NCBI RefSeq assembly: GCF_000688455.1
Contig: NZ_JIAL01000001.1
Span: forward strand, 1,953,001 to 2,017,000
Direction: 5' to 3'
Length of the DNA stretch: 64,000 bases
Source of the DNA: Pseudacidobacterium ailaaui
GTDB lineage: Bacteria; Acidobacteriota; Terriglobia; Terriglobales; Acidobacteriaceae
The notes beneath the pieces were generated by a model. The model was not told the DNA's origin and did not search any database. It saw only the letters and a list, made by a program, of their open reading frames with translations. Made by a program: the position numbers and the translations under genes. Below are positions 21,337-31,525 of the stretch, in pieces (position 1 is the first letter of the stretch; each line of letters starts with the position of its first letter).

Positions 21337-22458
21337 ATGAGTCCTGAGTATACCGTGCTCCATGTGGGTAAGTTCTATCCGCCCCATAACGGGGGCATAG
21401 AGACGCATGTGCGGGACCTGGCTGTACGGCAGGCGGGCAGGTTTCGGGTGCGCGTCCTGGTTTCCAACGACGTCCGGCGCACGGAACACGCAGTGCTCGA
21501 AGGTGTTTCCGTGACCCGGCTGGCGCGCTGGGGGACCATAGCTTCCATGCCGGTTTGTCCGGGCATGATTCAGGCGATTCGACGTTCCCCGGCAGATCTG
21601 GTGCACATCCATGTACCCAATCCTGGCGCGGCGTTCGCCTATCTGCAGAGCGGCCATCGTGGCAAGCTCATCCTGACGCACCATGCAGATACGTTGGGAC
21701 GCAAATTCCTGCGTAAACTAAGTGACCGCTTTGTACGGACTGCAATGGACCGTGCCGCAGTGATTATCGCTACGTCGCAAAGATATCTGCAGTCTTCTCC
21801 GGAATTGGCCCCATACCGGGACAAATGCCGGGTGATTCCCTTAGGAATTGACTTCCGGCAGGTGACTGTCCCCCCGGAACCGGGGACCAAGCCGGAGCCC
21901 ACGCTGGAAGGTCCGCTGGTTCTGGCGATCGGCCGCCTTGTTCCCTACAAAGGCTTTGATGTTCTCATTCGCGCGATGCAGTCCGTGGATGCGCAATTGA
22001 TTTTGATCGGAACAGGACCACAGGGGCCCCAGCTGCAATCTCTGATTGACAGCAGGAATCTTGGGCATAAGGTGAAGATGCTGGGGCGCGTCAGCGATTT
22101 GAGGCCCTACATGCAGGCTGCCTCCATATTTGTCATGCCATCGGTCACGCGGGCCGAAGCCTTTGGCCTCGTCCAACTGGAGGCGATGGCGGCCGGACTT
22201 CCGGTCATCAATACAGAGATTGATTCAGGAGTGCCAGAGGTTTCGCTTCATGGCGAGACCGGACTCACCGTGCCTCCTGGCGACGAATCCTCTCTGGCCG
22301 AAGCGATGCAATTGCTATTACACCGGCCGGACCTTCGCGAGCAATACGGCAAGGCCGCAAAGGAGCGCGTTCTTAAGGAGTACTCCGTGGAGAAAATGGC
22401 GGAGCGAACGCTCGCGGTTTACGAAGAGGTCCTGGGTCTGCATGCATCAGCCCGATAA
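21337..22458 (+). CDS. GT4 family glycosyltransferase
   Basis: GT-B enzyme, 373 residues, expected to act at the cytosolic face of the membrane on lipid-linked glycans. HVGKFYPPHNGGIETHVRDL (about 7-26) is the acceptor-domain glycine-rich loop; VLAIGRLVPYKGFDVLI starts the nucleotide-sugar domain; EAFGLVQLEAMAAGLPVI holds the E-x7-E motif of retaining GT4 enzymes. Same strand as accC, but by function it opens the polysaccharide island. It converges with the next GT4 gene across a 102-base gap with a small hairpin. Sugar specificity is unknown. Confidence 0.9.
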   Translation: MSPEYTVLHVGKFYPPHNGGIETHVRDLAVRQAGRFRVRVLVSNDVRRTEHAVLEGVSVTRLARWGTIASMPVCPGMIQAIRRSPADLVHIHVPNPGAAFAYLQSGHRGKLILTHHADTLGRKFLRKLSDRFVRTAMDRAAVIIATSQRYLQSSPELAPYRDKCRVIPLGIDFRQVTVPPEPGTKPEPTLEGPLVLAIGRLVPYKGFDVLIRAMQSVDAQLILIGTGPQGPQLQSLIDSRNLGHKVKMLGRVSDLRPYMQAASIFVMPSVTRAEAFGLVQLEAMAAGLPVINTEIDSGVPEVSLHGETGLTVPPGDESSLAEAMQLLLHRPDLREQYGKAAKERVLKEYSVEKMAERTLAVYEEVLGLHASAR

Positions 22459-22560: not shown

Positions 22561-23628
22561 CTAGCTTAGCTGCTGCAAAAGATCCAGGGTCTTGTTGGCA
22601 CAACTCCGCCAATTGTACTTGAGCGCCCGTTGCCGAATTTCCTCCCGGTCCAGCGTCCCCCCGGTCAAAGCCTTACGGATCTGGTGGGCGATACTGTGCG
22701 GGTCAAGCGGGTCTACGAACAGCGAAATGCCCTCGAAAATCTCTCTGAGAGAACCTTGTCCGGAAACAATCGTGGGACAACGCAGATAGGCAGCCTCCAA
22801 AGGAGGAAGGCCGAAGCCCTCGTATTTTGAGGGAAAAACGAAGCAGGCCGCAGAGTGATACAAGGCCTTCAGCTCTTCGTCCTTGACATACCCGATTCTC
22901 TTGATATTCCCTTCGACATCGGCCACCTCACCAAACACACCATCTGTGCGGCCTCCAGCCAGGACCAGTGGATAGCGCATGTCTCTCAGGTCCTTCATTG
23001 CACTTGCCAGTGCAGACAGGTTTTTATTGGGATTTTGAGAACCTACAGCAAGAACATATCGGTGACGATCGATTCCGTGCCGTGAAAACACGGTTTCATC
23101 TGCCTGTAGTCGATCTACATGTTCGCCGCCGAGATAGGTAACGGTAATCTTTTCCGGAGGCACATGGGTCCAGTGGACCAGCTCTGCTTTGGAAAACTCC
23201 GATACCGTTAGAATATGTTTCGCCTTTTTTGCGAGCAGTCCGTGCAGGATCCGGTACCAACTTCGGTATGCCAGGGAATAGCCTTCAGGAGCTGCCCATA
23301 CGGCCGCGTCATGGATCGTGATCACGTGGCGAGGATAGCTGAGCGGGGCGCCTCCGCAAGGAGTGAAGAGCAGATCTCCCTCGCAGAAGCGCGGCAAATC
23401 AAGCTGCTCCCACGCATGTCCCCGACGTTGCCCGACTTTACGCATGCGAATGCATTGATAAGGGGGCAAATCTGCGGCATCAGGCGGTACCAGCAGTTCC
23501 AAGACGACAGGGGGCTTCGTGCTCTCTGAAAGAATCAGGTCCATTTCTCTCAGTAGTTCACGGGCGTAACGCTGTACTCCAGTTACAGGCGCGGCCAGGA
23601 AGCGGCCATTAATTTTGATGGCATTCAT
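22561..23628 (-). CDS. GT4 family glycosyltransferase
   Basis: 355-residue GT-B enzyme. The N-terminus has INGRFLAAPVTGVQRYARELL, the short form typical of mannosyl/rhamnosyl-transferases of the WbaZ/MtfB kind. TVSEFSKAEL, VLAVGSQNPNKNL and FPSKYEGFGLPPLEAA (E-x7-E) follow in order. Its ATG overlaps the stop of the Wzy-like gene by four bases (ATGA), showing translational coupling within the island. It is the last gene of the reverse-strand block that begins with the flippase or, after an internal terminator, with the GT2 gene. Donor sugar is not predictable from sequence alone. Confidence 0.9.
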   Translation of the reverse strand: MNAIKINGRFLAAPVTGVQRYARELLREMDLILSESTKPPVVLELLVPPDAADLPPYQCIRMRKVGQRRGHAWEQLDLPRFCEGDLLFTPCGGAPLSYPRHVITIHDAAVWAAPEGYSLAYRSWYRILHGLLAKKAKHILTVSEFSKAELVHWTHVPPEKITVTYLGGEHVDRLQADETVFSRHGIDRHRYVLAVGSQNPNKNLSALASAMKDLRDMRYPLVLAGGRTDGVFGEVADVEGNIKRIGYVKDEELKALYHSAACFVFPSKYEGFGLPPLEAAYLRCPTIVSGQGSLREIFEGISLFVDPLDPHSIAHQIRKALTGGTLDREEIRQRALKYNWRSCANKTLDLLQQLS

Positions 23629-25058
23629 GAAGCAGGCCCGCCATTTTCGAGGGAGCTATTCCCGAGGTCAGAATGTCCGGAGGCGAGGCAGAGAGCAGGG
23701 CCAGCTTGAATGGATTTACTTGCAAGGTCTCCAGACGGACGTGATGGGTATACGCAAAGAACCAGACCGGCCCACATGACAGGAAATGTGCAATCCGGAA
23801 CGCCAAAGATCATGGCCAGAATGACTCCAACAACGGACCACCTGGCCCATTGCTTGGACATGGGCGTATTTTTCAGCAGACGGGCAATCATGAAGAAAAA
23901 CAGCGTAGATCCCACGACGCCGACATTACTAAGAAGCATCGTGAGCAGACTGGATGGCCGGTTACTGCCAAGGCCAACACCCAAACCATGAGTCATGCCT
24001 GTCAATTGCAGAGCATAAAGATCAGAGGCAGCCCGAGACACAAACGAAACCGATGCACCCTTATCAACCGTAAAGTGCAGAATTTCCTCGCGAATGGTTG
24101 GTACACCGAAGACGGTCAGTACAACCAAAACCACAGGGGCTAGGACGATCAAGACCCTCTTCAGAACGGTCAAGTTAAGATGCCAAGGGAGGCGATAAGG
24201 GGGGCGTGCCAAGAGGAGGCACGGAACAACAAGCGCCATAGCGGCCAGCGAACCAGAGGACAAGACAATCATGGTGCCCATGAGACTGACAAAGAACTTC
24301 ATGTACGAGCGCCCATTCAAAAGTATGTCCGCGAGATACCCCACGGCAAACATGCAAAGAGAAGCGCCAGCCATGGATGGTTCTGAAAACGTCCCTGGGA
24401 CCCGCAGCGGCCCCGGGGTCATATCGAGGTCTGTCACGTAATAACCAGGATTGTTCCGAATCAGCTTATCAACAAAAAAGTCCACCCCCGCGGATTTAAA
24501 GACCGCCTGAACAAAGACATAACTGACCAGGAGATAAAAAGCCAAGTCAAAGGATTGTTCCAATGTGCGATCAGAGCTTTCCTTTGCGGTAACGGCGATA
24601 TAGACCACGGCCAAGTCAATGATTAAAAAAAACGACTGGACAACATTACTGAACTTGAATGAGAGTGGGGGCCTGACAAAGAGGCCTGCATCAATCCCCT
24701 GGGAAGGATCGTAGACTGGGACCCCCGCAAAAAGGTGCGGGAGAATGATTGCGCCCAAGATCGCAACCGCTGCAAACAATGTCATTGTCAATCTGCCTTG
24801 AAAGCCCCTTCGTGTTCGGGAGGTCTGGACCCAAGAGAGGAACCTTTGGGCCATGAGCAGGATTCCAATCAAATAGAACGGCTGAAGCCCCCGTTTTCCA
24901 AAATTGACCACGGAGCCGGCCCCGAAAATACTTGAAACAATCAGCAGACCGGAAAGCTTCTCTGGTTTCTTCTTGAAGAAGTACAAACCGAGAAAGAGAA
25001 AGATGATTCCAAGCAATGTAGGCATCTCATGCCACCTGCCCACAATAGTCGAAAGCAC
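23625..25058 (-). CDS. O-antigen polymerase-like (Wzy) membrane protein
   Basis: 477-residue polytopic inner-membrane protein with about ten or more hydrophobic segments and a large loop around residues 195-245. The overall pattern, and GLGVGLGSNRPSS late in the chain (the conserved GxGxG-type loop of Wzy/O-antigen ligase proteins), support a polymerase of polysaccharide repeat units in the periplasm. The last 50 residues form a non-hydrophobic tail. Start is uncertain: GTG 25058, ATG 25025, or an earlier alternative codon, because hydrophobic coding continues slightly upstream. Stop overlaps the next glycosyltransferase. Wzy proteins are poorly conserved, so the call rests on topology and context. 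Confidence 0.75.
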   Translation of the reverse strand: MLSTIVGRWHEMPTLLGIIFLFLGLYFFKKKPEKLSGLLIVSSIFGAGSVVNFGKRGLQPFYLIGILLMAQRFLSWVQTSRTRRGFQGRLTMTLFAAVAILGAIILPHLFAGVPVYDPSQGIDAGLFVRPPLSFKFSNVVQSFFLIIDLAVVYIAVTAKESSDRTLEQSFDLAFYLLVSYVFVQAVFKSAGVDFFVDKLIRNNPGYYVTDLDMTPGPLRVPGTFSEPSMAGASLCMFAVGYLADILLNGRSYMKFFVSLMGTMIVLSSGSLAAMALVVPCLLLARPPYRLPWHLNLTVLKRVLIVLAPVVLVVLTVFGVPTIREEILHFTVDKGASVSFVSRAASDLYALQLTGMTHGLGVGLGSNRPSSLLTMLLSNVGVVGSTLFFFMIARLLKNTPMSKQWARWSVVGVILAMIFGVPDCTFPVMWAGLVLCVYPSRPSGDLASKSIQAGPALCLASGHSDLGNSSLENGGPAS

Positions 25059-25130: not shown

Positions 25131-25970
25131 TCATCTCCCCCAGTATCCTTCCAGGCGCCCCTTTAGCGTCGCCCAATAGAGAGCGGCTCCCGGGCTACGA
25201 CGGGCGAGAGCGAGCAGCCATCCGCCAGCGGGACGCGCACACGTATAGAGTGAATAGCTCAAGGGGAGTTTATGCTTGCGCAACAGATGTCCCAATCCTA
25301 TGCCGTAGCTCCGTGCGCGGCTCCGGGCCGATTCCGAGAAGTCCTGGGTTTTATCGGGGTGATAGATGGTCAACTCCTGTGCAAACCATCCTCTGCTTCC
25401 TGCCGCCAGCAATCGAAAGACGCAATCGGACTCCTCGCCTGATCCGAATCGCGTTCCCGCCCCAAGGCCAAGCGACTCGTCAAATCCGTGCACTGCACGC
25501 AGGGCATGCGCCCGGAAAAACAGCGTAAAAGAGATGCCGGTACGGAGAACATTCCTTGGCTTGATTTCACAGGAGGCCGGCATCCAGCGGTTCGAGGTGG
25601 GTCTTAACTCTTCAGTCCTGGCACACCCAGACAGGAAATCATACTCTGGATGCGACGCGAACCAGATTTTTACTTTGTGCAGCGTATCACTCGGATACCA
25701 GCAGTCGTCATCAGGAAAAGCAATCAGCTCCCCCCTGGCAACGGTCAATCCCTTGTTCCGTGCACGAGACAGGCCCGGTTCCGAGCGAAGGTGTTGGATC
25801 TCGAAATGCGATTGCCATGTCTCCACAATGGGAGCCAGCCGGTCATCCAGGTTCTGGTCCACAAGGACCACTTCAAAATCCCGGTATGACTGTTCCTTCA
25901 GTGTGGCAAAAAGACGGGCCAATTCCTCGGTCCGGTCCTTGGTGGCGACAATCAATGAGAAGTCCGGCAT
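25131..25970 (-). CDS. GT2 family glycosyltransferase
   Basis: GT-A enzyme, 279 residues from ATG 25970; codons upstream to 26045 look non-coding. FSLIVATKDRTEELARL (4-20) opens the nucleotide-binding fold, VLVDQNLDD follows, EPGLSRARNKG is the usual conserved helix, and FPDDDCWYP with Asp87-89 is the metal-binding DxD. GSGEESDCVFRLL is the ED-type catalytic base region. Soluble with no membrane helix. It starts the second reverse-strand unit of the island, after a probable terminator, followed by the Wzy-like and GT4 genes. Confidence 0.9.
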   Translation of the reverse strand: MPDFSLIVATKDRTEELARLFATLKEQSYRDFEVVLVDQNLDDRLAPIVETWQSHFEIQHLRSEPGLSRARNKGLTVARGELIAFPDDDCWYPSDTLHKVKIWFASHPEYDFLSGCARTEELRPTSNRWMPASCEIKPRNVLRTGISFTLFFRAHALRAVHGFDESLGLGAGTRFGSGEESDCVFRLLAAGSRGWFAQELTIYHPDKTQDFSESARSRARSYGIGLGHLLRKHKLPLSYSLYTCARPAGGWLLALARRSPGAALYWATLKGRLEGYWGR

Positions 25971-26051
25971 ATCCACCTCAGGACAGTGGCACATGGAGGC
26001 CGTCCAGCAGCTTCTCCCACAATATTTTCTGGCGCGAATCTGCAATCAAAC

Positions 26052-26087: not shown

Positions 26088-26669
26088 CTACCTTCCAAGA
26101 TAATGGAACACCTTCGCCACCTGCTTCAGATCGGTATCTTCGGGATTATCGGTATAGACAGTGATTTCCGCTGAACGGATCTCGGGAAATGTTCGGCACA
26201 GCGTCCGCCACTTGTTTGCCGTCACATCGTTCAGAATTTTACCGGTACAGCGTCCGGAACGATCAAATTCCAGTGTGGTTGCGATGTATCCATCCAGGGC
26301 CAGCATCTGCACCACAGCTTCAGCAATGGGTTGCAGGCTGGATGTAGCCAGGTAAATTCTGGATCCGTTTCTTCGCGCTTCCAACAATGCGTCACGGACC
26401 GGCACTGAGATCCTCTCGGCCATCGCAGCCTGCACATAAGACTGGGCAGACTTTGTCAACTCTTCGATGGACCAGCCGCGCAAGGATCGGACCAGCTGTT
26501 CCCGGGCAAAATCGCGGCCAGCGAGGCGATTCGCCATCTGACCCAGGCGACTGCGTAAAAGTCGGTTGCGGGCGACAAGGTAAGGAGAAAACGGAAGTGA
26601 CGCGAGATAGCCGTGGGTCGTGTTTTCAAGAATGAGTGTTCCGCACAGATCTGCAATCACAACTTTCAT
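26088..26669 (-). CDS. HAD-superfamily protein with altered catalytic motif
   Basis: 193 residues with the HAD subfamily IB layout: motif I VVIADLCGTL (Asp7 nucleophile), a helical cap (about 25-95), motif II LATSS, motif III NKW with Lys, and motif IV YTDNPEDTDL. The residue two after the nucleophile, normally the Asp general acid/base, is Cys9. That may abolish phosphatase activity or shift it to another phosphoryl transfer. It lies eight bases after the flippase stop on the same strand, so the two are co-transcribed. HAD-IB domains fused to or paired with UbiA-type transferases are known from polysaccharide loci; a UbiA-like gene lies on the other side of the flippase here. Confidence 0.75.
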   Translation of the reverse strand: MKVVIADLCGTLILENTTHGYLASLPFSPYLVARNRLLRSRLGQMANRLAGRDFAREQLVRSLRGWSIEELTKSAQSYVQAAMAERISVPVRDALLEARRNGSRIYLATSSLQPIAEAVVQMLALDGYIATTLEFDRSGRCTGKILNDVTANKWRTLCRTFPEIRSAEITVYTDNPEDTDLKQVAKVFHYLGR

Positions 26670-26677
26670 GGAGCGCC

Positions 26678-27961
26678 CTAGCTCTCTATTTTAACGACAG
26701 CAGAAGGCCGGGACGCTGGAGTCTGCCACGGCAACATGGCCAGCATGATGACCAGCAGTACCATGTAGGAAATCAAGGTGGCCCAGCTTGCTCCTAACCC
26801 TCCATATCGCGGAATCAGATAGAAATTTGCTCCGATGTTCACCGCTGCAGCGGAGGCGGTGGCAATCAACACACGCCTGGACATACCCCATGCCACCAGG
26901 GTCACTCCGCAGAAGGAGGTCACAAAATCCAGAGGCAGGGCCAGAATCAGGATTGCAACCATCGGCGCGCCCTGCGCAAAATTTTGACCATAGATTCCGA
27001 CGATGATTTTTCGGCTGAAATGCATTACAAGCAAAGCAGGCAGAGTCCCAGCCAAAAAGAGGCCCACCAGGTAGGACCTTAGCTTTTTGCCACTTCGATT
27101 TTCCGGAGAGACCTCTGCGATGCGTGGATAGAGGCTCGTGGTCAGCAGATAGTAGACCCCTAGCAATGCTGTGAGCAGGCGGTAGGCGCTGTTGTATAGG
27201 CCCACCTGCTGCAGATTGGTCAGCGCGCCCAGCAACAGGGAATCAATATTATTAAAGGCCTGGTTGCATGCGAGCGCTGCACCCAGCACCAGGACCGCTT
27301 TCCAGCGAGTATCTGTGACGATGTCCGGGGGCAAAGCTGTTGCCCTGTCAGGACCCTGTTGGAACGTGCGGCCGGTTTGCCATCTGGAGTAGGCAGCACT
27401 GCCGGCATATCCGATCCCCGCCGCCACAGGGATGGCCCAGCGGGGGTCGGCCCCAAAGAAGACCGCAAGGACCAGGGCCGCCAGCGACAAGACGCTGATC
27501 AGTGCTCTTGACATCGACAAGGATCCATACCGCTTGGCGCCCCAGAGCACCCAATCCAGGGAAAGACAGTACGGGGCCACGGCAAGCGCATAAAGGGACA
27601 CCATCAGCCGCGCATCCTGCGGTATGGGCCCAGCGATCGCGTAGATCAGTCCGAGAGGGACGGCGATCAGGGCAAGGAGCTTTCGCTTGGCCTGCATCCG
27701 TTGCCGGACCGGGGTCACCTTATCCGGCCAGGCTGCAATGAGTCTGGCCCCGATATGACGGGCCCCAGCGTCTATACCCAGCGCAATGTAGATGGCCATG
27801 GTTTGCGCAAGGGCCAGACTGCCAAGCGTGGAGACACCAAACTTTCTGCTCACCAGAATCAGCGTGAGCATCGTGCAAATCCGGGCGGACCCTTCGCCGA
27901 TTGCGAGCAGCGCACTTCCGGCGGCCACACCCATGAGATTTCTGAGTTTCTCTTTCAGCAT
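26678..27961 (-). CDS. Polysaccharide flippase (Wzx/MATE-like)
   Basis: About 427 residues from ATG 27961, with a dozen or more hydrophobic helices. Members of this MOP superfamily move undecaprenyl-linked repeat units to the periplasmic face. The N-terminal EGSARICTMLTLILVSRKFGVSTLG, the middle ALACNQAFNNIDSLLLGAL, and VGLYNSAYRLL are typical of the family. A longer frame reaches 28102 but its first 47 residues lack membrane-protein character. It heads the wzx-HAD transcript and diverges from the UbiA-like gene. Substrate unknown. Confidence 0.85.
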   Translation of the reverse strand: MLKEKLRNLMGVAAGSALLAIGEGSARICTMLTLILVSRKFGVSTLGSLALAQTMAIYIALGIDAGARHIGARLIAAWPDKVTPVRQRMQAKRKLLALIAVPLGLIYAIAGPIPQDARLMVSLYALAVAPYCLSLDWVLWGAKRYGSLSMSRALISVLSLAALVLAVFFGADPRWAIPVAAGIGYAGSAAYSRWQTGRTFQQGPDRATALPPDIVTDTRWKAVLVLGAALACNQAFNNIDSLLLGALTNLQQVGLYNSAYRLLTALLGVYYLLTTSLYPRIAEVSPENRSGKKLRSYLVGLFLAGTLPALLVMHFSRKIIVGIYGQNFAQGAPMVAILILALPLDFVTSFCGVTLVAWGMSRRVLIATASAAAVNIGANFYLIPRYGGLGASWATLISYMVLLVIMLAMLPWQTPASRPSAVVKIES

Positions 27962-28244
27962 TCGGAATCTGTATCCACAGGGAACAAGAGGCCTGCATGC
28001 GCTGCCGGATTGAAGAAGACAGGCAAAGCCAGCGACTTGAGCCACAGATGAAAGCTGTCGGCCTCTCGCCACGAAATGGCCAACGCAGGAATCAGATATC
28101 ATTCTAAAATGAGGCCGGCATGGTCACGCCGGGCGCAGCAGTCTGAAGGTCCCATCTTGGAAAAAGAATATGGGTCCTGATGCTTGCCTTGCTGATGGCC
28201 CATTCCAACAGAAATGCTTTCTGAAAATCACCGACCGAAACCAA

Positions 28245-29033
28245 ATGAATCTGAATGTTCCGCTTCTTTATACCTACAAAACACGAATGAACAATTATCG
28301 CGGACTATTGGGTTACCTGTCGCTGGACCTTGTCCCTCTTCTGCTTGTGGTTGGCATCACATCTTTGCAGGACGTGAGCAACATATTGCTGCTCTTCCTA
28401 CTTTGGCTGACTCTGTATGAGATTGGTTATCTGTTCAACGACCTGAAAGACCGTCATCGGGCAGGAGAACTGGACCGTACTCCAGGTCCGGTTTCGGGGA
28501 ACTGGTATTTGCCCGCAATTCCCCGACTCGTCCTGGCTGCGGTGATTGTCTGGGGCGTAGCCCTGAGGATGGGCTGGACAAAGGCGGTTATGGCGGTGGG
28601 GCTGAATCTCTTTGTGCTTGCTCTCCTGTTCTGCCATTCCTCCGATTTTGTCAGACGGCATTTTCCGGGCAGGCTGATTACCTTTTTGGCCCTGGCCTTG
28701 TTCAAATATTCTCCAGCTTTGGTTCCTGTTACAGGTGCGATCAAAGGCGCGAGCGCGCTTCTGATGATCTTTTTGTTTTATGGAATGGCCCGTGTGCTGA
28801 ACTACACTCTGCGAAAGTTTGGCAATGAAAATGTGGGGCTGTCACCGCGAGCTCAAACCAAAATGCAGTTAGGGATCCTGACCATCTTTTCTCCATTGGC
28901 CTTTTTCCCGTATGCTTCAGCGGATCGTGCCATTCTGCTCCAGGCCAGGGTCCTTTGGATTTACTTTTTCGCCATCACTCTCCTTTCTCTGATGGCTTTT
29001 TTCCTGAGGCGTCAACTTGCCGGCAGAAGTTAG
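28245..29033 (+). CDS. UbiA-like prenyltransferase-related membrane protein
   Basis: 262 residues from ATG 28245 (ATG 28170 gives 25 more residues of poor quality; ATG 28287 is also possible). Seven or eight hydrophobic helices. YLFNDLKDRHRAGELDRTPGP resembles the first Asp-rich motif of UbiA enzymes, NDxxDxxxD followed by RP, which binds the prenyl diphosphate through magnesium. I do not see a clear second Asp-rich motif, so this is either divergent or a non-catalytic relative. In some envelope loci UbiA proteins make lipid-linked pentoses (decaprenyl-phosphate phosphoribosyltransferase), which would suit a Wzx/Wzy island. Moderate certainty on the family, low on activity. Confidence 0.55.
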   Translation: MNLNVPLLYTYKTRMNNYRGLLGYLSLDLVPLLLVVGITSLQDVSNILLLFLLWLTLYEIGYLFNDLKDRHRAGELDRTPGPVSGNWYLPAIPRLVLAAVIVWGVALRMGWTKAVMAVGLNLFVLALLFCHSSDFVRRHFPGRLITFLALALFKYSPALVPVTGAIKGASALLMIFLFYGMARVLNYTLRKFGNENVGLSPRAQTKMQLGILTIFSPLAFFPYASADRAILLQARVLWIYFFAITLLSLMAFFLRRQLAGRS

Positions 29034-29209: not shown

Positions 29210-30781
29210 TCACACATTGCCCTGGCGCATCTGTTCGGCCAGATATTCTGAGGCGCGCATGGCCAGGGCCAAGATCGTTAGAGTAGGGTTTTGCCATCCT
29301 CCGCTGACGAAGCATCCGCCGTCCACTACGAACAGATTTTTGATGTCATGGCTCTGGTTCCATTTGTTCAGGACGCTGGTTTTCGGATCATCGCCCATAC
29401 GGCAGGTGCCCAGTTCATGAATGCTGTAGCCGGGCGGGTTGGGCTCATAGTTCTTGGTCAGGACTTCAAAACCTGCGGCCTCGGCCATGGCAACACTGGT
29501 GTTCACGGCATCGCGCGCCATGTTGAATTCATTATCGGTATATTTTGTGTCGATATGAAGTGCCGGAATGCCCCAGGCATCGACAACGTGAGGATCGATA
29601 CTGACGTGGTTCTCATAGCGGGCCAGAACTTCGCCCATGATGGAGGTGGCGAAGCCGCTGCCATGGTAACTCTCCAGCTTTTGCTCCAGCTCTTCTCCAT
29701 ACGCAGCAAAATTGCGGGGATCCATCGGTCCCAGGCTGCTGTAAACGTTCAACGCATAGCCACGAAGAAAATCTGGGGCCTTTGTATCGAGATTCCGGAA
29801 GCGCGGGACCAGTGCTGCGCCGCCGATCATTTCCGGAGTGGCCTTCCCATCGCGGGCTTCCGGCACGGAGCAGACAATTCCCGGTCCATATACCTGATCA
29901 ATCAGGTAATGTCCAAGGACCCCGCTTGAATTGGCCAGTTTTGAATTCAACAGCAGACGGGTGCTCTCCAGTGTTCCCGCGGCCAGCACCACGACGTGTG
30001 CCTTTACCGACATCTCCCTCCGTGAATGCCGCTCTACGAAATGGACCTCATTGACCAGGCCGGTGTTTTTGTCTACTCCTAGCTCACGCACCACAACGTT
30101 GGGTATGGCTTTTAATTTCCCCGTGGCAAAGGCGTCTGGCAGTAGCAGATTTACAGAACTGGCGAGTCCGTTGACTCCCAGGGACCGCCTTCCCTTGCAG
30201 ACCGGAACGCCAAGTTTTTTCCCCGCAGCGATGAAACGCTTCATGCACTCCGTCCAGGGAGAATCGTCAGGAACAAAATTACCGTCAGGATACTGAGGCA
30301 GACCGTCTTTGGCCCCTGTTACGCGAAAGATCTGCTCGACCCGGGAATAGTATGGGTCCACGTCCGCCAGGCTGATCGGCCAGTCGTCGCCATAGCCGTC
30401 ATGGGACTTCGCTTTGAATTCGTAATCGCTCAGGCGGAAAGACTGCCGCGACCAGAAGAGCGAGCGTCCTCCAAACAACCGCACGCGGACCCAGTTATAA
30501 GGATGCTGAGGGTTGTAGGTGTAGGGCACCTCCTGCTCATCGACCCAGGTATTGGCGTTAAATTCATTCGCCTGAAAGATATGCGGCACTTTGCCAGGCT
30601 CTTTAAAGCCGCGATAAGGCAGAGCATAGGCGGGCTTCCATTCAGTATCTTTGGTGGGGTCAGGAATCGGTCCGGCATTGAGCATCAGGCAGGAGATGCC
30701 CTTTTCCGTGAGCACCTTCGCCGCCATCCCACCCGAGTGGCCAGAGCCAATAATCAACACATCTACCTTTTCTTCCGCCAT
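29210..30781 (-). CDS. GMC family oxidoreductase (large subunit of a membrane dehydrogenase)
   Basis: 523-residue flavoprotein. [19 protein letters not shown] (about 6-24) is the FAD Rossmann loop, [15 protein letters not shown] the second GMC signature, and [12 protein letters not shown] plus [12 protein letters not shown] near the C-terminus the catalytic His and Asn regions. Closest in type to the gluconate 2-dehydrogenase / fructose dehydrogenase large subunits, which oxidise sugars or polyols in the periplasm and pass electrons to cytochrome c. No Tat or Sec signal is seen on this chain; it probably rides out with the Tat-marked small subunit encoded just upstream. No cytochrome gene is adjacent. 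Confidence 0.9.
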
Positions 30782-30823
30782 TCCATCCTCTCGTGGTTTT
30801 CCGGGTACTTCGTGTGCGTATCT

Positions 30824-31525
30824 TCAGGCATGGTGCCTGGGAGCGGTGTTCTGACAGGCCTTTTCTCCCTCGCGTTTCATGTCCGGATCCACGGGATACC
30901 AGTAAACACCCTGGTCGGGAGGCTGTTGGCCCATTGCCTTGGCCGCGGCGGCCCATGCCTGGGAGTTGATAGTGGCCGTGCGGATGTCACTATGGGCCAC
31001 ATTGATAAACCGCTCATAGGGTTCCCTGGGCGGATGGTCGGTCATCCAGGTCCTGAGCCAGGGACGGATCAACTGGTCTGCCTCCTCGGCCGAAGCGGAA
31101 GCAAATGGCTTTCCGAAACGGTGACGCGACTCGGTGTCGAGCCTGTCAAGACCGGACTGGTAGATCGACTGCTGCTCACGGGGTGATGCGCCAATCAGAA
31201 AATCCAGAAACTCCGGGGCCCCGGCTTCTATGGCGCCGGGATAGCCTTTGCGGGCGGGCATCAGGACCTCACTCAGCCGTCGCAACGTAGCAAATTGAGT
31301 GTTTGTGAAAAAACGGGTACTGGTTCCAGCAACAGCGTCGGGAGCAATCTGTCGGATGGCATCAGGCTTAATTTCGGACAGGCCGCGCATCCACGGTACG
31401 GGCCCCGGCGCGGTCGGATTCGGCGGTGGAGTGGAAGGCGCTACTGCATTGGTCTGTTGCGCGAGCATGGCCTTTGCGCCCACGGAGGCCGCCATCAGTC
31501 CCTTCATGAAATCACGCCGTTGCAT
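30824..31525 (-). CDS. Gluconate 2-dehydrogenase subunit 3 family protein (Tat-exported)
   Basis: 233 residues. The N-terminus MQRRDFMKGLMAASVGAKAMLAQ has the twin-arginine motif RRDFMK and a moderate hydrophobic stretch, so folded export through Tat is expected. TQFATLRRLSEVLMPA and AIEAGAPEFLDFLI are typical of the small subunit that pairs with GMC dehydrogenases and assists export and assembly. It ends 42 bases before the GMC gene, the usual small-large order, and both are on the reverse strand. The upstream 321-base region is shared with a divergent secreted-protein gene. Confidence 0.88.
   Translation of the reverse strand: MQRRDFMKGLMAASVGAKAMLAQQTNAVAPSTPPPNPTAPGPVPWMRGLSEIKPDAIRQIAPDAVAGTSTRFFTNTQFATLRRLSEVLMPARKGYPGAIEAGAPEFLDFLIGASPREQQSIYQSGLDRLDTESRHRFGKPFASASAEEADQLIRPWLRTWMTDHPPREPYERFINVAHSDIRTATINSQAWAAAAKAMGQQPPDQGVYWYPVDPDMKREGEKACQNTAPRHHA

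Follow-up and report, generated by a model that had tools for sequence, protein, structure and literature searches.

In Pseudacidobacterium ailaaui, a HAD protein with Cys at its acid/base position and a UbiA-like membrane protein, encoded on either side of a Wzx-type flippase gene, make up a rare, unannotated two-protein module that occurs in distant bacteria. Analysis of a 64,000-nucleotide stretch of DNA (the window) and of relatives in other genomes suggests that the pair probably makes a lipid-linked sugar for a cell-surface polysaccharide. A literature search that left most subscription papers outside its reach found no description of a Cys-type HAD beside a UbiA-like gene.

The window cassette and its HAD and membrane genes

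The cassette occupies 21.3-29.0 kb of the window, is flanked on both sides by housekeeping or unrelated genes, and contains two GT4 and one GT2 glycosyltransferase, a polytopic membrane protein, the HAD protein, the flippase and the UbiA-like protein. Its features are as follows.

21337-22458, plus strand: GT4 glycosyltransferase (PF00534, E=1e-39)
22561-23628, minus strand: GT4 glycosyltransferase (PF00534, E=2e-23)
23625-25058, minus strand: polytopic membrane protein, possible polymerase or ligase (without a confident Pfam family; role suggested by its place)
25131-26045, minus strand: family 2 glycosyltransferase (PF00535, E=8e-20)
26088-26669, minus strand: HAD-IB protein of 193 aa (PF12710, E=9e-13; motif I D7-L8-C9-G10-T11)
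26643-26651, minus strand: D7-L8-C9 codons of HAD motif I, GAT CTG TGC (read from the sequence)
26678-28102, minus strand: Wzx-type flippase, between the HAD and membrane genes (PF01943, E=7e-16)
28170-29033, plus strand: UbiA-like polytopic membrane protein (profile-level UbiA kinship; homologues adjoin or are fused to a HAD)
28416-28454, plus strand: UbiA-like motif YEIGYLFNDLKDR (alignment and motif table)

The HAD gene starts 8 bp 3' of the flippase gene on the same strand, and co-transcription of the two is thus plausible. The N-terminus of the HAD protein is MKVVIADLCGTL, in which the codon TGC places Cys at residue 9, where the general acid/base Asp, the second Asp of the DxD motif, would be expected. 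By its core motifs (nucleophilic Asp, S/T, Lys and the Mg-binding Asp pair) the protein is HAD superfamily IB-like, with the motif II T/S, K153, D174 and D178 all present, and its AlphaFold model (pLDDT 80) found its best PDB matches among HAD-IB and phosphoserine phosphatases, 3fvv at the top. The fold and motifs II-IV are those of HAD-IB phosphatases (TIGR01490, SerB; PDB 3fvv, 3p96), but these normally have DxD, whereas the window HAD has DxC.

The membrane gene is divergent from the flippase and carries the motif YEIGYLFND-LKD; homology of the open reading frame begins near an internal ATG at 28245. Just downstream, on the opposite strand, lies a GMC oxidoreductase with gluconate-2-dehydrogenase subunit 3 (29210-31525). 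The original prediction, made from the DNA letters, had described a HAD-IB protein with an Asp-to-Cys9 change and, divergently beyond the flippase, a UbiA-like membrane protein having an NDxxD-type motif and no visible second UbiA Asp motif. These descriptions were upheld: motif I reads D7-L-C9-G-T, with the Cys invariant in the split form of the pair described below, and the protein at 28170-29033 (plus strand) has the NDxxD-type motif and contains no DxxxD.

A canonical HAD(DLDGT)-UbiA(NDLLDLEAD) fusion, of the NCBIfam NF006088/PRK08238 kind by architecture, is also encoded in this genome (L053, equal to L065:4073-5884, plus strand; G000:C1, at about 2.083 Mb), with an ATP-pyrophosphatase-like gene on one side and an RND efflux pump on the other, both assigned by eye. 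The HAD plus UbiA architecture is common to the two systems; the canonical copy matches PF01040, whereas the window pair is separate and divergent. Assignment of the window membrane protein as the genome's canonical HAD-UbiA partner was rejected, since the canonical fusion sits elsewhere in the genome, and for the same reason the window pair is an additional system.

Split pairs, fusions and the invariant Cys

In the window itself, the opposite strands of the two genes and the flippase in between count against a single enzyme system; in other genomes the two proteins recur as a unit. Relatives of the membrane protein were not found in 199 other genomes of its own family (200 drawn), and the viral contigs and plasmids searched had no relatives of the pair. 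HAD matches in the window's family (L004-L013), where read, mostly belong to a large fatty-acyl-reductase-like protein (by eye) that carries the HAD-IB domain as a fusion, and are unrelated to the pair. Two relatives of the membrane protein came from a scan of genome contigs, one in a Chitinophagaceae MAG (L014) and one in Methylobacter sp. BlB1 (L015), and in both the gene directly upstream encodes a HAD with D-x-C. Profile searches added three further split pairs, G259 (L018), G1378 (L027) and G1419 (L029), again with a D-x-C HAD followed by the membrane gene. In all five the HAD gene comes directly before the membrane gene, with a gap of 31 bp or 3 bp or an overlap.

Proteins in which the HAD and membrane parts are fused in the same order were found in seven genomes (L020/L022, L023, L024, L025, L028, L030 and L031), while two weak matches with internal stops (L019 and L026) were left out. 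The L031 fusion adjoins ubiA and an rsmE-like gene, which was taken as chance. A HAD phosphatase and a UbiA-type protein thus occur as one unit in five adjacent pairs and seven fusions, and as the same pair recurs in 12 other genomes, chance pairing is ruled out. At least two phyla, Bacteroidota and Pseudomonadota, are represented among the relatives. Both the partnership of the two proteins that had been proposed and the search for HAD-UbiA fusions that had been recommended were borne out by these adjacent genes and fusions.

The two forms differ in the HAD motif, with D-x-C in all six split HADs and D-x-D in 7/7 fusions, whose motif I reads DLDETL, DADETL or DFDYAL. Trees separate the split from the fused forms with support of 100, in unrooted trees of 12 very divergent sequences, and between the two groups the membrane parts are 13-24% identical. 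The second Asp is retained in the fusions found, so the change of motif is a trait of the split lineage, not one shared by HAD/UbiA-like proteins in general.

When 209 Pseudomonadota genomes were searched with a profile built from the six split HADs, the two linked HADs scored 288-305 bits and all others 65 or less. The 28 nearest unlinked HADs that were read have Asp (26) or Asn (2) at the position and never Cys, and no membrane-family gene was seen in the roughly 1.5 kb on either side of any of them. In this sample, therefore, Cys marks the split pair. The original prediction had named, as a finding that would refute it, close homologues that keep the second Asp and lack any link to UbiA genes. 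This did not come about: among the close homologues, absence of the second Asp coincided fully with linkage to the membrane gene. Standalone HAD-IB proteins with D-I-N-G-T, and so Asn at the acid/base place, were seen at L077:1456-2151 and in L085, the former beside an adenylation-domain-like gene.

Alignment of the six split HADs showed D7, T11, K153, D174 and D178 to be invariant together with the Cys, which from these sequences looks fixed, not decayed. Decay of the HAD was rejected on the same grounds, the Cys being invariant while the catalytic residues are intact, and the invariance of the motif I nucleophile and of the motif III and IV residues argues for an active protein. A different reading, considered unlikely, is that the HAD is no longer a phosphatase and holds a phosphoaspartate or only binds a phosphosugar, as a subunit that regulates or scaffolds the membrane enzyme. 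Other HADs with an altered second residue, phosphonatase (Ala) and the P-type ATPases (Thr), are nonetheless still enzymes, and a mere scaffold would not need the nucleophile, the Lys and the Mg-binding Asp residues that are all invariant here. What speaks for this reading is that the second Asp, which activates water in ordinary HAD hydrolysis (PMC8069645), is replaced in every one of the six split HADs.

Genomic setting and UbiA kinship of the membrane protein

Examination of gene neighbours, which had been recommended in the form of co-occurrence across flippase and polymerase loci, placed five of the six split pairs, among them that of the window, in polysaccharide loci. In L014, L015, L060 (G1378) and L061 (G1419), glycosyltransferase genes are followed by the HAD and UbiA-like genes, then by a polymerase-like gene just downstream (EpsG confirmed in three of the four) and a GT4 gene beyond. 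An AsnB-like amidotransferase adjoins the pair or lies within two genes of it at L014:12217-14076, L015:12204-14159 and L060:7767-9749. The sixth pair, that of G259 (L059:9411-10843), lies outside any polysaccharide cluster, with ubiA-yqgF-def on one side and GNAT-ubiX on the other (by eye, except for the UbiA match), and this setting counts against a glycan role.

UbiA proteins are mostly prenyltransferases, and the G259 pair is flanked by ubiA and ubiX; both points favor a membrane protein that transfers a prenyl or other lipid group instead of a sugar phosphate, in which case the pair would make a modified lipid carrier or a quinone-like lipid. The window pair and four others nevertheless lie among glycosyltransferase genes, and a known example of a HAD phosphatase partner belongs to the sugar-phosphate branch of the family (PMC11127046), so that lipid transfer is judged distinctly improbable.

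The kinship of the membrane protein with UbiA is absent from single-sequence searches and appears only by profile. Searches of Pfam, NCBIfam and PDB sequences with the membrane-family members scanned gave no match, including to PF01040 at its curated cut-off. The A3 profile, however, matched a true UbiA protein (L032) with E=9e-5 in one genome of 339; L032 is a PF01040 protein, DPPRS-like, that matches mycobacterial DPPR synthase (PDB 8j8j) with E=7e-39. Comparison of the membrane family with 25 UbiA proteins by hhalign gave scores of 37-38 at a probability of 43-52%, whereas control scores reached at most 25 for 40 block-shuffles, 19 for reversed profiles and 26 for Wzx, acyltransferase and Wzy sets. 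In the alignment, the family's ND coincides with that of UbiA motif I. Together this profile evidence is positive but modest for a family distantly related to UbiA. The HMM check proposed at the outset accordingly came out mixed: the HAD exceeded the PF12710 cut-off and fell below the curated NCBIfam cut-offs for TIGR01490 and TIGR01488, and the membrane protein did not match PF01040 but was related to UbiA by profile. A match to some other family, which would have spoken against the assignment, was not seen.

The N and D of UbiA motif I are invariant in all 12 membrane-family members aligned and follow the second hydrophobic region, as in UbiA. The full NDxxDxxxD motif I was not found in the family; its middle Asp is lost in 11/12 and kept (D at +4) only in the window copy. 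The family pattern is instead NDxxxxxx[DE], again in 11 of 12, the window protein being the exception with NDxxD and no acidic residue at +8. Neither a second Asp motif (DxxxD) nor a loop like the KRxxEL of DPPRS could be recognised in the alignment; the place of the second Asp motif is taken, in the second loop, by an invariant Tyr and a Lys or Arg. Just after the ND loop, five of the six split members have R-x-R, which resembles the KRFRP of DPPRS. The AlphaFold model of the membrane protein (three sequences: window, L014 and L015) has nine helices and a pLDDT of 44, too low for a judgement of the fold.

That the protein is instead an unrelated membrane enzyme or flippase, whose YExGYxxND resembles UbiA motif I by convergence, would agree with the lack of a Pfam, NCBIfam or PDB sequence match, the low pLDDT and the low hhalign probability, but is rendered quite unlikely by hhalign scores far above all the controls (shuffled, reversed and other membrane proteins) in alignments where the ND pairs match up, by the A3 match and the position of ND, and by the HAD partnership itself.

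Proposed reaction and significance

The closest described system is ORF15 of Citrobacter youngae O1, in which a HAD phosphoribose phosphatase and a UbiA polyprenyl phosphoribose synthase form one protein (PMC11127046). Like window-type pairs, it joins a HAD phosphatase to a UbiA-type membrane protein, with the HAD first, in a polysaccharide locus, and keeps the N and D of motif I. In contrast, the Cys clade is split into two genes with DxC in the HAD, motif I of the window family is ND with a usually acidic +8, single sequences of the family show no recognisable similarity to PF01040, and no GT-C or SMR-like flippase is recognised near the pairs. Mutants of ORF15 at N247, D248 and D255 were barely active, whereas D251A was still somewhat active in vivo and the R366A/E369A changes were tolerated (PMC11127046). 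In the membrane family, residues equivalent to N247 and D248 are present, as mostly is one equivalent to D255, while the equivalents of D251 and the R/E loop are lost; this pattern is compatible with a working phosphosugar transferase.

Mycobacterial DPPR synthase Rv3806c (PDB 8j8j) and phosphatase Rv3807c offer a second comparison, as a UbiA-type transferase with a separate phosphatase gene, like the split pairs. The N-D loop is shared with Rv3806c and so, in most split members, is the R-x-R after it. Rv3807c, however, is not a HAD, and DPPRS keeps NDxxDxxxD, whereas the window family lacks the full motif. In the known three-component pentofuranose system (PPPRS/PRP, flippase, GT-C), a GT-C and a small EmrE/ArnE-like flippase are required as well. 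The neighbours of the pairs included no recognisable GT-C transferase, SMR-type flippase, DprE-type epimerase or other pentose gene, and Pfam recognised no GT-C glycosyltransferase in the window locus, where the membrane protein at 23625-25058 has no confident Pfam family.

From these comparisons we infer the reaction, its donor and acceptor, and the role of the Cys. The N-D(-acidic) loop of the UbiA-like protein would bind Mg, and the protein would move a phosphosugar, most likely 5-phosphoribosyl from PRPP, to a lipid phosphate or lipid-linked glycan at the inner membrane face. Dephosphorylation by the HAD would then allow the product to be flipped and used in the polysaccharide, presumably by the same two-step logic as ORF15. 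The DxC motif may tune the HAD for a special substrate or for slower, partner-gated hydrolysis. Because the GT-C and the small EmrE/ArnE-like flippase are not recognised here, the substrate of the pair might be the undecaprenyl-linked repeat unit itself, which Wzx would flip.

Confidence differs between the parts of this proposal. It is very likely that the two proteins form a functional HAD/UbiA-like unit acting in surface-glycan synthesis. The chances are about even that they are the two parts of a single enzyme system, related to but divergent from HAD-UbiA polyprenyl-phosphate phosphoribose synthases like ORF15, and the analysis leans slightly away from the phosphopentose reaction, so that this part is tentative. 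There is a small chance that the Cys-HAD and the minimal-motif UbiA-like protein make a lipid- or glycan-linked sugar by chemistry unlike that of known phosphoribose synthases, such as phosphotransfer via a long-lived phosphoaspartate handed between subunits.

In summary, a DxC HAD together with a YExGYxxND membrane protein is diagnostic of the module, which would add to the HAD-UbiA route for lipid-linked pentoses a branch whose active site is pared down. A Cys naturally fixed at the HAD acid/base position would allow a direct test of the tolerance of HAD chemistry, and the module could be used to seek unusual sugars in the polysaccharides of the strains that carry it.
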